Made by a program: the position numbers and the translations under genes. The notes under the pieces were generated by a model, which saw only the letters and a program-made list of their open reading frames with translations, was not told the DNA's origin and made no database searches. A DNA stretch of 64,000 bases from Streptomyces sp. 1222.5 (GTDB taxonomy: Bacteria; Actinomycetota; Actinomycetes; Streptomycetales; Streptomycetaceae): assembly GCF_900105245.1 (NCBI RefSeq), contig NZ_FNSZ01000001.1, forward strand, positions 7,500,001-7,564,000, read 5' to 3'. Of this stretch, positions 2,874 through 42,398 are shown in pieces; positions within the stretch are counted from its first letter, which is position 1, and the number at the start of each line of letters is the position of its first letter.

Positions 2874-3719
2874 GATGTCGTCGTCGCCCTCGTCGGTGCC
2901 CTCGTCGTCCTGCTCGCCCGCCACGATCAGCCGCGGCAGATGCTCGGAGATCTCCGCGCGCGCGTCCCCCGGCAGGCCCGCGTCGGTGACGAGCGTGTCC
3001 ACCTGATCCAGCGTCGCGAAGGAACTCAGGCCCACCGTCCCCCACTTGGTGTGGTCGGCGACCACCACGACCCGGCGCGCGGAGTGCACCAGCCGCCGGT
3101 TGGTCTCGGCTTCGGCGAGGTTCGGTGTGGACAGGCCGGCCTCCACCGATATGCCGTGCACACCGAGGAAGAGCACGTCGAAGTGGAGCGCGGCGATCGC
3201 CTGGTCGGCGACCGGTCCCACCAGCGAGTCCGACGGGGTGCGCACACCGCCGGTCAGCACCACCGTGGCCGCGCCCTGCCGCTGGCCCGAGGTCCGCTGC
3301 GCCGCATGGAAGACGTCGGCGACCCGCACCGAGTTCGTCACCACGGTCAGATCGGGCACCTCCAGCAGGTGCTGCGCGAGGGCGTACGTGGTCGTACCGC
3401 CGGACAGGGCGATCGCCGTACCCGGCGCGACCAGCCGCGCGGCGGAACGCGCGATGTCCTCCTTGGCGGTCAGCTCCAGCCCCGACTTCGCCTCGAACCC
3501 CGGCTCGTGGGTGCTGGCCTCGACCACCGGCACCGCGCCGCCGTGCACCTTCTCCAGCACACCCTGGCGGGCGAGCGCGTCGAGATCACGGCGCACGGTC
3601 ATGTCCGACACGCCGAGCTTGCGGGTCAGTTCGTTCACCCGCACACCGCCCCGGCGCCGGACCTCGTCCAGGATCAGGGCGCGGCGCTGCTCCGCGAGGA
3701 GGTTCTGATTCTCGCTCAC
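2871..3719 (-). CDS. DeoR/GlpR family transcriptional regulator
   Basis: A 282-residue repressor with the standard DeoR layout. Residues about 5-60 form the winged helix (RVNELTRKLGVSDMTVRRDLDALARQGVLEKVHGGAV), including the family signature DMTVRRDL. The rest is the sugar-phosphate-sensing DeoRC domain, with SGGTTT and a TNSVRVADV strand that contact phosphorylated sugars in characterised members. The acidic tail (DDEGTDEGDDD) is dispensable-looking. GTG at 3719 is chosen over an upstream ATG at 3767 because GGACCGGAG precedes it. No sugar gene is adjacent, so the target is unknown; the palindromes just downstream may be one of its sites. Confidence 0.9.
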   Translation of the reverse strand: MSENQNLLAEQRRALILDEVRRRGGVRVNELTRKLGVSDMTVRRDLDALARQGVLEKVHGGAVPVVEASTHEPGFEAKSGLELTAKEDIARSAARLVAPGTAIALSGGTTTYALAQHLLEVPDLTVVTNSVRVADVFHAAQRTSGQRQGAATVVLTGGVRTPSDSLVGPVADQAIAALHFDVLFLGVHGISVEAGLSTPNLAEAETNRRLVHSARRVVVVADHTKWGTVGLSSFATLDQVDTLVTDAGLPGDARAEISEHLPRLIVAGEQDDEGTDEGDDDI

Positions 3720-37082: not shown

Positions 37083-38429
37083 TCACTCCCCGCGGAGGTC
37101 CTTCACCCGGCGGAGCTTGCCGAGCGAGCGCTCCAGGGTCTCCGGCTCGACGATCGCCACGTCCACGGTGACGCCGACGCCGTCCTTGACCCCCTTGGCG
37201 ATCAGCCCCGCGGCGGCCTCGCGCCGCTCGGGCGGGCAGTCGACGCGGGCCTCCACACGGACCGTCATGTGGTCCATGCGGCCGCGCCGGCCCAGCTGGA
37301 TCTGGAAGTGGGGCGCGACGCCCGGCGTGCGCAGGACGATCTCCTCGATCTGGCTGGGGAAGACGTTCACCCCGCGCAGGATGATCATGTCGTCGCAGCG
37401 GCCGGTGATCTTCTCTACGCGGCGGAAGGCCGGGCGTGCCGTCCCGGGCAGCAGCCGGGTCAGATCGCGCGTGCGGTAACGGATGACGGGCAGCGCCTCC
37501 TTGGTGAGCGAGGTGAAGACGAGCTCTCCCGCCTCGCCGTCGGGCAGGACCTCGTCCGTGACGGGGTCGACGACCTCCGGGCGGAAGTGGTCCTCCCACA
37601 CGTGCAGACCGTCCTTGGTCTCCACGCACTCCTGGGCCACGCCCGGCCCCATCACCTCGGAGAGGCCGTAGATGTCGACGGCGTGGATGTCCATGCGCTC
37701 CTCGATCTCGCGGCGCATCTCCTCCGTCCACGGCTCCGCGCCGAAGATGCCGATCCGCAGGGACGTGGAGCGGGGGTCCACGCCCTGACGCTCGAACTCG
37801 TCGAGCAGCGTGAGCATGTAGGACGGGGTGACCATGATGATCTCGGGCTGGAAGTCCTGGATGATCTGCACCTGGCGGGCCGTCATACCGCCCGAGGCGG
37901 GGATGACGGTGCAGCCGGCGCGCTCGGCGCCGTAGTGGGCTCCCAGTCCGCCGGTGAACAGGCCGTAGCCGTAGCTGATGTGCACCTTGTGGCCGGGGCG
38001 GCCGCCCGCGGCGCGGATCGAGCGGGCGATCAGGTCGGCCCAGGTGGAGATGTCGTTCTCGGTGTACCCGACGACGGTGGGACGCCCGGTCGTGCCGCTG
38101 GACGCGTGGATGCGGCGGACCTCGGACATGGGGACGGCGAACATGCCGAAGGGGTACGTCTCCCGCAGGTCGGCCTTCGTGGTGAAGGGGAAGCGGGCCA
38201 GGTCCTCCAGCGTCCGGCAGTCGTCGGGGCCGACGCCGGCGTCGTCGAACTTCTTGCGGTACAGCTCCACGTTGTCGTAGGCGTGCCTCAGCGTCGACCT
38301 CAGCCGGCGCAGCTGGAGATCCCGCAGCTCGTCCTGCGTCAGGTTCTCCGCGGCGTCCAGCAGTTCCGGGGGACAGGGCTCGCCGCGGCGCCCACCGGCG
38401 GCCGGGGTGGTCTTCAGCTCGATACTCAT
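37083..38429 (-). CDS. paaK: Phenylacetate-CoA ligase
   Basis: A 448-residue adenylating ligase that activates phenylacetate to phenylacetyl-CoA with ATP and CoA. The P-loop-like IHASSGTTGRPTVVGYT (about residues 105-120) binds ATP. YGLFTGGLG, YGLSEVMGPG and YRTRDLTRLL are the later core motifs, and the C-terminal lid includes MIILRGVNVFPSQIEE. Length and motifs match PaaK. GAGGAG lies five bases before the ATG, and the start overlaps the end of paaI by four bases (ATGA), so the two are coupled. This is the first step of the pathway whose epoxidase lies 3 kb to the right. Confidence 0.93.
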   Translation of the reverse strand: MSIELKTTPAAGGRRGEPCPPELLDAAENLTQDELRDLQLRRLRSTLRHAYDNVELYRKKFDDAGVGPDDCRTLEDLARFPFTTKADLRETYPFGMFAVPMSEVRRIHASSGTTGRPTVVGYTENDISTWADLIARSIRAAGGRPGHKVHISYGYGLFTGGLGAHYGAERAGCTVIPASGGMTARQVQIIQDFQPEIIMVTPSYMLTLLDEFERQGVDPRSTSLRIGIFGAEPWTEEMRREIEERMDIHAVDIYGLSEVMGPGVAQECVETKDGLHVWEDHFRPEVVDPVTDEVLPDGEAGELVFTSLTKEALPVIRYRTRDLTRLLPGTARPAFRRVEKITGRCDDMIILRGVNVFPSQIEEIVLRTPGVAPHFQIQLGRRGRMDHMTVRVEARVDCPPERREAAAGLIAKGVKDGVGVTVDVAIVEPETLERSLGKLRRVKDLRGE

Positions 38430-38869
38430 CGCGACTCCTCGGAAGTGCTGCCCCTCAGGACGCGGCTGCGGCCACGGAACTCCGCGACCACCTCGTCACC
38501 GCGCCTCACCGTCACGTCGTAGATGCCGCTGCGGCCGAACCGGGTGCGCTCCTCGGCGGTGGCCTCCAGGACATCACCCTCGTACACCGGGGCCACGAAG
38601 TCGATGCCGGCTCCCGCCGCCACCGTCACCGGGCCGTGGCTGTTGCAGGCGCAGGCGAAGGCGCTGTCGGCGAGGAGGAACACGTACCCGCCATGGGCGA
38701 TCCTGTGGCCGTTGACCATGGCGGCAGTCACGGTCATGCGCAGCACGGCGGTCCCCGGGCCGTGCCGCACGAGTTCGATTCCCAGTCGCCGGGAGGCTTC
38801 GTCCGCGAAGAACATCGCCTCGACCGGTCCGTCTGCACTGCCGGCGGCCTGCGTCACTGTATCCACCAT
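38426..38869 (-). CDS. paaI: Hydroxyphenylacetyl-CoA/phenylacetyl-CoA thioesterase
   Basis: A 147-residue hotdog-fold thioesterase. NGHRIAHGGYVFLLADSAFACACNSHG (about residues 53-80) matches the PaaI signature with its catalytic Asp in ADSAFA. PaaI hydrolyses dead-end ring-hydroxylated phenylacetyl-CoA thioesters to save CoA. It is the promoter-proximal gene of the leftward paaIK unit, and a PaaR-like palindrome lies 12 bp upstream of its start. Confidence 0.92.
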   Translation of the reverse strand: MVDTVTQAAGSADGPVEAMFFADEASRRLGIELVRHGPGTAVLRMTVTAAMVNGHRIAHGGYVFLLADSAFACACNSHGPVTVAAGAGIDFVAPVYEGDVLEATAEERTRFGRSGIYDVTVRRGDEVVAEFRGRSRVLRGSTSEESR

Positions 38870-38880
38870 CTTGTGTCCCG

Positions 38881-38894
38881 ACCGAACATTCGGT
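38881..38894. promoter_or_regulatory. PaaR-like operator ACCGAACATTCGGT
   Basis: ACCGAA and TTCGGT are perfect 6-bp arms around CA. It fits the ACCGNNCGNNCGGT core known for the TetR-family PaaR of Corynebacterium, with CA instead of CG in the centre. It lies in the gap between paaI and paaJ and is only 12 bp from the paaI start. Confidence 0.65.
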
Positions 38895-39032: not shown

Positions 39033-40256
39033 GTGTCCGACGAGGTATTCCTGATCGACGGTGCCCGCACTCCGCAGGGGCGCTACGGCGGCGCCCTCGC
39101 CACCGTGCGCCCCGACGACCTCGCGGCCCTGGTCGTCGGCGAGGCCGTACGACGCTCCGGCATCCCCGGGGAGGCCGTGGACGAGGTGATCCTCGGCGCC
39201 GCCAACCAGGCCGGCGAGGACAACCGCGACGTGGCCAGGATGGCGGTGCTGCTGGCCGGCCTCCCGCACACCGTGCCCGGCTACACCGTGAACCGGCTGT
39301 GCGCCTCCGGTCTGACGGCGGTGGCCTCGGCGGCCCAGGCGATCCGGGCGGGTGAGGCCGACCTGGTCGTCGCCGGGGGAGTGGAGTCGATGACCCGGGC
39401 GCCCTGGGTCATGGAGAAGCCGGGCACCCCGTGGGCCAAGCCGGGCGCGGTCCACGACACCGCCCTGGGCTGGCGCTTCACCAATCCCCGGTTCGCCGCG
39501 GCGGACCGCGAGGTGCCCCGCGGCGCGGGCCCGGAGACGGTCAAGGTCACCCTGTCCATGGGCGAGACGGCCGAGGAGATCGCGGCCCTGGACGGCATCG
39601 GCCGCGCCGAGTCCGACGCCTTCGCACTGCGCAGCCACCAGCGCGCCGTCGCGGCACAGCGGGCCGGGCACTTCGACCGGGAGATCGTCCCGGTCGCCGT
39701 CAAGGACGGCGAGGTCACGCGCGACGAGGGGCCGCGCCCCGGCACGACCCTGGAGAAGCTGGGCACGCTGCGCACCATCTTCCGGCCGGACGGCATCGTG
39801 ACCGCGGGGTCGTCCTCGCCGCTCTCCGACGGGGCCTCCGCGCTGGTCGTGGCCGGTGCCGCGGCCGTGCGGCGGTACGGCCTCACCCCCCGGGCCCGCA
39901 TCGTCACCTCGGCCTCCGCCGGTGTCCAGCCGAACGTCATGGGACTCGGCCCGGTGCCCGCCACCCAGAAGGCACTGGCCCGCGCGGGCTGGGAGACGGC
40001 GGACCTGGGCGCCGTCGAACTGAACGAGGCGTTCGCCGTCCAGGCCCTGGCCGTCGTCCGCCGGCTCAAGCTCGACGAGGAGAAGGTCAACGCCGACGGC
40101 GGTGCGATCGCCCTCGGCCACCCGCTGGGCTGCTCCGGCTCCCGCATCCTGCTGACCCTGCTCGGCCGCATGGAGCGGGAGGACGCCCGCCGGGGCCTGG
40201 CCACCCTCTGCGTGGGCGTGGGGCAGGGCGTGGCCATGCTCGTGGAGCGCCCGTGA
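39033..40256 (+). CDS. paaJ: Acetyl-CoA acyltransferase (3-oxoadipyl-CoA thiolase type)
   Basis: A 407-residue thiolase. The acylated cysteine is in NRLCASGLTA (about residue 90). NEAFA and GGAIALGHPLGCSGSR supply the other catalytic His and Cys. Its closest family is the PaaJ/PcaF thiolases that split 3-oxoadipyl-CoA into succinyl- and acetyl-CoA, the last step of phenylacetate degradation. A generic fadA-type enzyme cannot be excluded by sequence alone, but the position in the cluster supports PaaJ. GAGGAGG precedes the GTG. Its TGA overlaps the GTG of the remnant ORF at 40253. Confidence 0.88.
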   Translation: MSDEVFLIDGARTPQGRYGGALATVRPDDLAALVVGEAVRRSGIPGEAVDEVILGAANQAGEDNRDVARMAVLLAGLPHTVPGYTVNRLCASGLTAVASAAQAIRAGEADLVVAGGVESMTRAPWVMEKPGTPWAKPGAVHDTALGWRFTNPRFAAADREVPRGAGPETVKVTLSMGETAEEIAALDGIGRAESDAFALRSHQRAVAAQRAGHFDREIVPVAVKDGEVTRDEGPRPGTTLEKLGTLRTIFRPDGIVTAGSSSPLSDGASALVVAGAAAVRRYGLTPRARIVTSASAGVQPNVMGLGPVPATQKALARAGWETADLGAVELNEAFAVQALAVVRRLKLDEEKVNADGGAIALGHPLGCSGSRILLTLLGRMEREDARRGLATLCVGVGQGVAMLVERP

Positions 40257-40393
40257 CCCCCGCCGGGTACGACACCGTCCTGCCGGCGGAGTCCGGGGAC
40301 CGGCTCGTCGTCTCGCCGTGCCGTCCGGACGCCCGCAACGCCGTCGACGCGCGGCGCACGACCCGATTCCTGGAGAAGGGGACTGGAACATGA
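40253..40393 (+). pseudogene. Remnant of an enoyl-CoA hydratase gene (paaG/paaF type)
   Basis: This 46-codon frame starts with GTG overlapping the paaJ stop (GTGA) and ends on a TGA that overlaps the paaH start (ATGA). Its first 33 residues read like the N-terminus of the crotonase superfamily: YDTVL near residue 6, GDRLVV at 16-21, and [11 protein letters not shown] at 23-33, where RPxARNA is the hallmark of that strand. Then the sequence ends in [11 protein letters not shown]. About 220 residues, including both oxyanion-hole segments, are absent. I infer an internal in-frame deletion of an enoyl-CoA hydratase/isomerase gene that once linked paaJ to paaH. A functional small peptide is less likely. 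Confidence 0.65.
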
Positions 40394-41244
40394 CCGCAGC
40401 ACCGGCAGTCGTGGGAGTGATCGGCGGCGGCCGTATGGGCGCCGGCATCGCCCAGTCCTTCGCGACGGCGGGATCGGCCGTCACGATCGTCGAGAGCGAC
40501 GCGCGCTCGGCGGCCCAGGCGCTCGAACGGGTGGCCACCGGGCTGAAGCGGGCCGCCGAACGCGACCGGCTCACCGAACCCGCGGACCGGGTGCTCGGCC
40601 GCGTCACGACCGTCGCCTCGGTCGCGGACCTGCCCGCGCACGCCGATCTCGTCGTCGAAGCCGTTTTCGAGGACGCCGCCCTCAAGGCGGGCCTGCTGGC
40701 GGCGGCGGAGCAGGTCGTGGCCACGCGGACCGTCCTGGCCAGCAACACCAGCTCCCTCTCGGTCGCCGAACTCGGTGCCGCGCTCACCACGCCCGGCCGA
40801 TTCCTCGGCATGCACTTCTTCAACCCGGTGCCGGCCTCCGAACTCGTCGAGATCGTCGTCGCCCCCGCCACCGGCGACGACACCCTGCGCAGCGCCCTCG
40901 ACTGGACCCGCTGCCTGGGCAAGAAGGACGTCGTGGTCAAGGACTCCCCGGGCTTCGCCAGCAGCCGGCTGGGCGTGGCCCTGGGCCTGGAGGCGATCCG
41001 CATGGTCGAGTCCGGGGTCGCCGAGCCCGAGGCCATCGACGACGCCATGCAACTGGGTTACAAGCACCCGATGGGCCCCCTCCGGCTCACCGACCTGGTC
41101 GGACTGGACGTGCGCCTCGCCATCGCCGAGCACCTGCACGCCACCCTCGGCGAGCGCTTCGCCCCGCCGCGGCTGCTCCGCGACAAGGTGGCCCGCGGGG
41201 ACCTCGGGAGGAAGACCGGGCAGGGCTTCTACACCTGGGAGTGA
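40390..41244 (+). CDS. paaH: 3-hydroxyacyl-CoA dehydrogenase
   Basis: A 284-residue NAD-dependent dehydrogenase. [11 protein letters not shown] near the N-terminus is the dinucleotide site. The catalytic His is in GMHFFNPVP, with Glu in the VEIVVAP segment downstream, and SNTSSLSV and KDSPGF are standard family motifs. It would oxidise 3-hydroxyadipyl-CoA to 3-oxoadipyl-CoA in this pathway. It starts inside the remnant's stop codon (ATGA), with GAAGGGG about ten bases upstream, so it still is translated in an operon with paaJ. The next gene, paaA, follows after 167 bp and its own operator. Confidence 0.92.
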
Positions 41245-41375: not shown

Positions 41376-41395
41376 AACCGAACGAACGGTCGGTT
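41376..41395. promoter_or_regulatory. PaaR-like operator AACCGAACGAACGGTCGGTT
   Basis: Contains ACCG-AA-CG-AA-CGGT, a full match to the ACCGNNCGNNCGGT core of the PaaR motif, within a longer palindrome with arms AACCGA and TCGGTT. It lies 16 bp before the paaA start, between paaH and paaA. Confidence 0.7.
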
Positions 41396-41411: not shown

Positions 41412-42398
41412 ATGACTGCACGGCAGGCCGGGTCCCCGACGGCGGACGGAGCGCCGCCCGAACTCCAGGAGCGGTTCGAGGACACGATCGCCCGCGACCA
41501 GCGGATCGAGCCCCGGGACTGGATGCCGGACGGCTACCGCAAGACGCTGGTCCGGCAGGTGGCGCAGCACGCCCACTCGGAGATCATCGGCATGCAGCCC
41601 GAGGGCGAGTGGATCACCCGTGCGCCGTCCCTGCGCCGCAAGGCGATCCTGTTCGCCAAGGTCCAGGACGAGGCCGGCCACGGGCTGTACCTGTACTCGG
41701 CGGCCGAGACCCTCGGTGTCGACCGCGCCGACCTGACCGAGCGGCTGCTCGAAGGCCGTCAGAAGTACTCCTCGATCTTCAACTACCCGACCCGCACCTT
41801 CGCCGACGTCGGCGTCATCGGCTGGTTCGTCGACGGCGCCGCCATCTGCAACCAGGTGCCGCTGTGCCGCAGCTCCTACGGGCCCTACGCCCGCGCGATG
41901 GTCCGCATCTGCAAGGAGGAGTCCTTCCACCAGCGGCAGGGCTTCGAACTGCTGATGACGATGATGCGCGGCACCGACGCCCAGCGCGAGATGGTCCAGG
42001 ACGCCGTGGACCGCTGGTGGTGGCCGTCCCTGATGATGTTCGGCCCGCCCGACGACGACTCGCCCAACTCGGCGCGGTCCATGGCCTGGAAGATCAAGCG
42101 GCACAGCAACGACGAGCTGCGCCAGCGGTTCGTGGACATGACCGTGCCGCAGGCCGAGAAGCTCGGCGTGACCCTGCCCGACCCGGAACTGCGCTGGAAC
42201 GAGGACCGCGGCCGGTACGACTTCGGCACCCCCGACTGGTCCGAACTCAAGCGGGTGATCACGGGCGACGGGCCGTGCAACGAGGAGCGGATGGCGCGGC
42301 GCCGGGCCGCGCACGAGGAGGGTGCCTGGGTGCGCGAGGCGGCAGCCGCGCACGCCGCCAAGCAGGCCGCCAGGACGCAGAACGGAGCAGTGGCATGA
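41412..42398 (+). CDS. paaA: 1,2-phenylacetyl-CoA epoxidase, catalytic subunit A
   Basis: A 328-residue four-helix-bundle di-iron protein. Two E-x-x-H motifs supply the iron ligands: DEAGH in [11 protein letters not shown] and EESFH in [13 protein letters not shown]. The complex PaaABCE inserts one oxygen atom of O2 into the ring of phenylacetyl-CoA, using electrons from PaaE. The protein ends with Ala-rich residues. The ATG at 41412 lies after the operator; longer frames upstream would read through the operator. GGTAGGG lies close to the start. It heads a five-gene coupled operon paaABCDE, and its TGA overlaps the paaB ATG. Confidence 0.95.

Follow-up and report, generated by a model that had tools for sequence, protein, structure and literature searches.

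Streptomyces sp. 1222.5 probably carries an in-frame remnant of a PaaF-like enoyl-CoA hydratase gene between paaJ and paaH

Introduction

Between paaJ and paaH in the phenylacetate (paa) cluster of Streptomyces sp. 1222.5 lies an open reading frame (ORF) of only 46 codons that overlaps both of its neighbors. Is this ORF what is left of an enoyl-CoA hydratase gene, and if it is, which gene was it, how was it lost, and what might carry out its step now? We addressed these questions in a stretch of 64,000 nucleotides, called the window below (contig NZ_FNSZ01000001.1, positions 7,500,001 to 7,564,000), and in paa loci of related bacteria.

Results

The 46-codon ORF and its junctions

The ORF at 40253-40393 starts with GTG and ends with TGA in the translation of the window. 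Its coordinates and its four-base overlaps with paaJ (GTGA) and paaH (ATGA) are as an earlier note, made from the sequence alone, had described them. The features of this part of the cluster, read against the hydratase gene of Streptomyces carpinensis, are as follows:

39033..40256, plus strand: paaJ-type thiolase (ORF list, Pfam and NCBIfam models)
40253..40256, plus strand: GTGA, the paaJ stop codon (TGA, ending at 40256) over the start codon of the short ORF; inherited (sequence and relatives)
40253..40354, plus strand: probable relic of the hydratase N-terminus, 34 codons matching residues 1-34 of the S. carpinensis protein (alignment, BLASTP)
40354..40355, plus strand: probable deletion junction, 203 codons (609 bp) gone relative to the S. 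carpinensis gene (alignment)
40355..40393, plus strand: probable relic of the hydratase C-terminus, 12 codons matching residues 238-249, and the stop codon (alignment, BLASTP)
40372..40389, plus strand: GGAG / AAGGGGA stretch in the kept C-terminus, a possible ribosome binding site of paaH (sequence)
40390..40393, plus strand: ATGA, the stop codon of the short ORF over the paaH start codon; inherited (sequence and relatives)
40390..41244, plus strand: paaH, 3-hydroxyacyl-CoA dehydrogenase, full length (Pfam, dN/dS)

According to their Pfam domains, the thiolase and the 3-hydroxyacyl-CoA dehydrogenase flanking the ORF are both full length. The thiolase scored best with 3-oxoadipyl-CoA thiolase models, yet under their cut-offs, and it exceeded the cut-off of the general acetyl-CoA C-acyltransferase model. 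Purine-rich stretches similar to that at 40372..40389 precede paaH in relatives. Judging by its stop/start overlaps (ATGA/GTGA), the ORF would belong to a translationally coupled gene series.

The surrounding genes and operator-like sites are:

37083..38429, minus strand: ORF that we take to be a paaK-like phenylacetate-CoA ligase (ORF list)
38426..38869, minus strand: ORF, presumably a paaI-like thioesterase (ORF list)
38877..38894, minus strand: palindrome between the divergent paaI and paaJ, PaaR/TetR-operator-like by its pattern, with two mismatches to the pattern of the paaA site (pattern search)
41377..41394, plus strand: palindrome ACCGAACGAACGGTCGGT immediately upstream of paaA, exact, with a putative PaaR-operator role (pattern search)
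41412..42398, plus strand: paaA, first gene of the paaABCDE ring epoxidase (ORF list, gene order)

The genes after paaA are presumably genes B to E of the same epoxidase, and we assume that both palindromes are linked to a PaaR regulator. By chance alone, 2.5 occurrences of the loose palindrome pattern would be expected per window; the site at paaA matches exactly, and similar palindromes stand before paaA in several relatives. The palindrome upstream of paaA suggests a separate regulated promoter for paaABCDE. Because the palindrome lies immediately upstream of paaA, the genes before paaA may be able to erode without harm to the epoxidase.

Both ends of a hydratase are found in the short ORF

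At the same place in the S. carpinensis locus L050 stands a hydratase of 249 amino acids, which begins MNATAYDTILVDELEDRLVVSLHRPDARNAINAR and ends HRMTRFLEKRTRA. The short ORF corresponds to codons 1-34 and the last 12 codons of this gene, in the same order and in frame, and the lengths agree: 249 - 203 = 46 codons, so that the missing 609 bp are in frame. BLASTP matched the two pieces to the S. carpinensis hydratase separately, with 21/36 identities (E 2e-11) for the N-terminal piece and 8/11 identities (E 0.003) for the C-terminal one. None of 2000 shuffles was as good in either case; the N-terminal piece scored 92 and its best shuffle 47, and the C-terminal piece scored 37 and its best shuffle 36, a narrow margin of one unit. 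The stretch RTTRFLEK in the tail of the ORF is itself found in one of 46 intact relatives, 25 of which have RMTRFLEK, and the solved hydratase 5z7r carries a comparable C-terminus, MTAFIEKR. The 46 residues alone gave no match in Pfam or NCBIfam, including the PF00378 crotonase profile; the HMM libraries overlook the ORF, and it is pairwise comparison that relates its two ends to a member of the crotonase / enoyl-CoA hydratase family.

The earlier note had proposed that a full-length hydratase gene was deleted in frame at this place. Its observation of a crotonase-like beginning is supported by BLASTP and by the shuffles, and the alignment with crotonases that it had called for places both ends in order and in frame. 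The two ends remain joined, as expected from such a deletion. The note was mistaken on one point, as it had considered the tail foreign to the family, when this tail is the C-terminus of the hydratase.

Like the PaaF-like hydratase of Streptomyces paa operons, the short ORF has the N- and C-terminal pieces, the position between paaJ and paaH, and both four-base overlaps. Unlike it, the ORF lacks the interior (~203 codons) with the active site and thus cannot be an enzyme. The regions GGGAEL and GNPEPGLG of the S. carpinensis protein, which we take to hold the oxyanion hole and the catalytic glutamates, lie within the missing residues 35-237, so that the oxyanion hole and both catalytic glutamates are absent. 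Microhomology was considered as a mechanism for the loss: CGCATG is present at each of the two breakpoints in S. carpinensis, but 45 codons and not 46 would remain after recombination between these copies, and we draw no mechanism from it.

Intact hydratases and overlaps in relatives

Loci related to the dehydrogenase were gathered from named genomes (80 loci kept) and from 150 further genomes of the genus, for which 30 loci were requested. The junction in related Streptomyces, which the earlier note had suggested comparing, does hold a full-length enoyl-CoA hydratase gene, including in the sister locus L050. The distance between thiolase and dehydrogenase is 739 to 913 bp in Streptomyces loci with the hydratase, versus 133 bp in the window, and the intact hydratases have about 242 to 298 residues; those of L063, L067, L068, and L199 measure 286-298 residues.

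Four-base overlaps were surveyed by taking the first start codon near the preceding stop; for the window, S. phaeofaciens, and G263, the sequence itself was inspected by eye. Among 49 loci holding the hydratase, 48 have the overlap between paaJ and the hydratase (exception L061) and 48 that between the hydratase and paaH (exception L057, where the hydratase frame is broken). For the samples of overlaps, tree, residues, and dN/dS, named loci with a thiolase under 79% identity and repeats of a locus were dropped. L057 and the two loci from other genera, L086 and L096, were left out of the tree, the residue comparison, and the dN/dS sample, and L223 was left out of the tree.

Several loci showed features of their own. 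In L057 (Streptomyces sp. P3), the hydratase matches as two overlapping pieces, suggesting a frameshift or a sequencing error. S. carpinensis NRRL B-16921 carries a pair of paa loci, L050 and L053; the hydratase is intact in each, and they are placed in different parts of the paaJ tree. Between paaH and paaA of S. hygroscopicus ATCC 21589 (L055 / L235), only residues 214-274 of a PaaG-like protein are found, possibly another deletion relic.

Losses of the hydratase across the genus

Searching 392 genomes of the genus for the thiolase at E <= 1e-150 gave 41 genomes with a paaJ-type thiolase, one locus each, and 351 genomes without such a thiolase at this threshold. A second thiolase of G336 (L223), with no match to the hydratase, paaH, or paaA nearby, was excluded from this count. 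The hydratase is intact in 30 of the 41 loci and missing or reduced in 11. The genomes of the window (G000), G263, G120, and G236 have lost the hydratase and kept paaH; in the other seven (G028, G084, G087, G157, G222, G336, and G373), both genes are gone.

These loci differ in what remains. S. phaeofaciens (L051), from outside the 392-genome sample, has another stump at 2876-3004 of its locus, with different breakpoints, hydratase residues 231-248, and the four-base overlaps with paaJ and paaH still present. In G157 (L232), the sequence from the paaJ stop to paaA holds a chimeric relic, in which hydratase residues 4-16 are followed by PaaG-like residues 80-105, and paaH is gone. G263 (L233) has a repetitive ORF of low complexity between paaJ and paaH, with no match to the catalytic part of the hydratase; its likeness to the C-terminal extension of the S. 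violens hydratase (42% across residues 248-297) is a match between low-complexity sequences obtained with the filter off and so weaker than its E-value says. In G120 and G236, paaH follows directly on the paaJ stop. All five loci without the hydratase but with paaH (the window, S. phaeofaciens, G263, G120, and G236, from four clades) keep the four-base overlaps into paaH.

Four further matches were regarded as chance or low complexity: the weak ones of L206 to the hydratase, of L233 to PaaG on the other strand, and of L051 to PaaG, and that of the paaH-paaA gap of the window to the hydratase (E 0.002).

The thiolase DNA tree, a gene tree whose bootstrap had not settled, comprised 58 loci (46 intact and 12 not), and its two Embleya outgroup rows do not form one side of any branch. 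The window locus is the sister of the intact S. carpinensis L050 in this paaJ tree (100/100). The states intact and not intact require 8 changes on the tree, and well-supported branches force 7 of these; with shuffled labels, 11.1 changes were needed on average and as few as 8 in 4 of 500 cases, so that the losses show some clustering. S. phaeofaciens, G120, and G222 fall together in a single clade (92/92), and their losses may have had one common beginning. Changes on a tree cannot by themselves separate gain from loss; it is the remnants with hydratase pieces that indicate loss in the cases where they occur. Taken together, it looks as if several related bacteria eroded this gene separately. 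The exact junction of the window was not found in any other genome among 392 of the genus, 61 of relatives, and 394 of the family, sets that overlap and in which few candidates were scored per genome.

Selection on the short ORF and its neighbors

Compared with S. carpinensis over 41 codons, the short ORF differs by ~16.5 non-synonymous and ~5.5 synonymous changes (dN/dS about 1.16), an estimate from few codons that counts changes on both branches and includes the time before the deletion. The S. carpinensis hydratase is among the faster intact copies, and part of the divergence lies on that branch. In the same comparison, paaH shows 34.5 non-synonymous and 64.5 synonymous changes (dN/dS 0.167), and paaJ 24.7 and 91.3 (dN/dS 0.087). 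The ORF differs from paaH with a Fisher p of 0.0006 or 0.0017, depending on the rounding, and from paaJ with a p of 9e-7. Moreover, 6 of 37 of its residues are unseen among the 46 intact copies, the highest number for an intact copy being five when each is left out in turn. Two of these residues are prolines, one at a Val/Ile column and one at a column that is Leu in 46/46.

The peptide thus seems to drift freely beside a maintained paaH, which argues against a conserved small protein. With a full-length homolog at this place in relatives and apparently relaxed selection, the ORF classifies as a gene remnant (deletion pseudogene). The earlier note had offered the reuse of a small ORF as its alternative, and this finds no support at the protein level, as no protein constraint is visible and no other genome with the junction was found among those searched. 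Of the two observations that the note had named as speaking against a deletion, a short ORF common to the relatives under purifying selection or a lack of crotonase similarity, neither was made.

Identity of the lost gene and candidates for its step

The S. carpinensis protein scored 171 bits with EchA19, 155 with PaaF, and 119 with PaaG, all under the curated cut-offs, that of the PaaF model being 371 bits. Its solved relatives are mostly hydratases, including 4fzw_A, named 2,3-dehydroadipyl-CoA hydratase. Many relatives have a distinct PaaG-like gene 3' of paaH; the window has none between paaH and paaA. The lost gene is therefore best called PaaF-like and not PaaG, on the strength of these comparisons, and only PaaF-like because the PaaF cut-off is not reached. 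Of the two names put forward in the earlier note, this keeps PaaF, in the weaker form, as the hydratase models are closest, and drops PaaG, which is a separate gene after paaH.

To look for substitutes, the S. carpinensis hydratase was used as a query over ten genomes, among which three intact controls returned copies of 85-87%. No relocated or close second copy of the lost hydratase was found in the genome of the window, where the best match has 39% identity (G000:C1:2933312-2934016) and nothing exceeds 40%. This best match, in a gene at 2933306-2934031, has the stretches CELALCAD and GQPEILLG and reads by eye as a general enoyl-CoA hydratase; on these sequence grounds, it would be the most likely substitute. 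For the compensation elsewhere that the earlier note had considered, the genome thus offers distant crotonases and no close copy. The genome has 19 crotonase-domain loci, of which ten proteins were read by eye. It also has a PaaG-like gene (46%, G000:C1:3305334-3306119).

No match over the cut-off was found for PaaZ (TIGR02278) in any of the ten genomes searched, and all ten have one for PaaN_2 (TIGR02288). In the genome of the window, the PaaN gene over this cut-off lies outside the cluster, at G000:C1:4415407-4417074, and may act as the ring-opening counterpart. PaaN lies directly upstream of paaJ in 4 of the 10 genomes and far away in that of the window. The four upstream genes (TIGR02288) are:

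G350:C1:9798896-9800563: PaaN upstream of paaJ
G286:C79:59408-61066: PaaN upstream of paaJ
G120:C4:5875-7530: PaaN upstream of paaJ
G263:C116:12183-13841: PaaN upstream of paaJ

Discussion

We consider it very likely (a probability of roughly 0.9) that the small ORF is the relic of a PaaF-like enoyl-CoA hydratase gene that was dispensable and eroded neutrally by an in-frame loss, with translation of paaH kept. The ancestral order would have been paaJ, the PaaF-like hydratase, paaH (with paaG too in many relatives), and paaABCDE, with four-base overlaps linking paaJ, the hydratase, and paaH. After the split from the S. carpinensis L050 locus, ~609 bp would have been lost in frame, comprising the hydratase interior with the active site; a single deletion event is the simplest reading. 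To judge from the junctions, a ribosome ending paaJ would restart at GTGA, cross the 46 codons, and restart at ATGA on paaH. Out-of-frame deletions would uncouple paaH and were probably purged by selection, which would explain why the relic is in frame. The general enoyl-CoA hydratase elsewhere in the genome presumably does the lost step. More generally, and quite tentatively, four-base overlaps may filter the erosion of operons, a dispensable middle gene being lost only via deletions that keep the translation chain open. If so, lineages would repeatedly and separately reach frame-keeping stumps or direct fusions bridging to the next gene.

The remnant might instead have been retained as a coupling bridge, with its length, frame, overlaps, and internal ribosome-binding stretch under selection and its protein unused. 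The overlaps into paaH retained in all five loci of four clades that lack the hydratase and keep paaH would agree with this, as would the position of the purine-rich stretch before paaH in the retained C-terminal codons and the constraint remaining on paaH. However, no bridge exists in G120 and G236 (2 of the 5), which means that it is not needed, and in these two paaH has an alternative start, an ATG lying a few codons further in. The same pattern would also arise if in-frame deletions simply survived passively, and the stump was found in a single genome, which gives no measure of constraint on its length. We regard selection for a bridge as possible and rather doubtful.

That the 46-amino-acid peptide is reused as a functional small protein would fit an open, properly started ORF within a coupled operon, and it is made highly improbable by the dN/dS of about 1.16, by the prolines at positions conserved in relatives, and by the failure to find a family match (Pfam, NCBIfam) or a second genome with the stump. 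This occurrence in a single genome could also point to an error of assembly or sequencing, with the full gene really there; the genome of 8.85 Mb is in 2 contigs and listed as 100% complete, the stump shows an excess of amino-acid changes of its own next to neighbors under constraint, and similar losses are found in other genomes, so that we hold such an error to be extremely improbable. A chance ORF unrelated to crotonases, for which one could invoke the silence of the HMM libraries and the one-unit margin of the short C-terminal piece, is barely conceivable when pieces match both ends of the hydratase at this very place and 0 of 2000 shuffles are as good for each.

In-frame internal-deletion pseudogenes and gene remnants occur within bacterial operons. 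The stump resembles them in its residual ends at the ancestral place, its relaxed constraint, and its intact neighbors; unlike typical operon remnants, it overlaps both neighbors and could serve the translation of the downstream gene. It is a genuine in-frame gene remnant, ordinary as an object, and one of several separate losses that kept the overlaps. Among the literature titles searched, with most subscription papers outside the scope, none dealt with this remnant or with a rule tying overlaps to frame-keeping loss.

A 2026 survey calls the epoxidation-module ('EM') arrangement ubiquitous in Streptomyces and describes PaaF and PaaG homologs as often lying outside the cluster (PMC13186573), and the S. 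coelicolor cluster is given as paaK, I, and A-E in a 2009 study (PMC2653477). Compared with the reduced Streptomyces paa clusters as these papers present them, the window shares the absence of lower-pathway genes and differs in that its loss has gone half-way: the remnant can still be read, and paaH is retained.

The locus would thus have caught one step of a process that has repeatedly eroded the lower phenylacetate pathway in Streptomyces. An annotation would call a meaningless small protein at the stump or overlook the missing hydratase step. The loci form a natural series of stages, with the gene intact, as a stump, as a fusion, and with both genes gone, which lets the effect of coupling on which deletions survive be tested.
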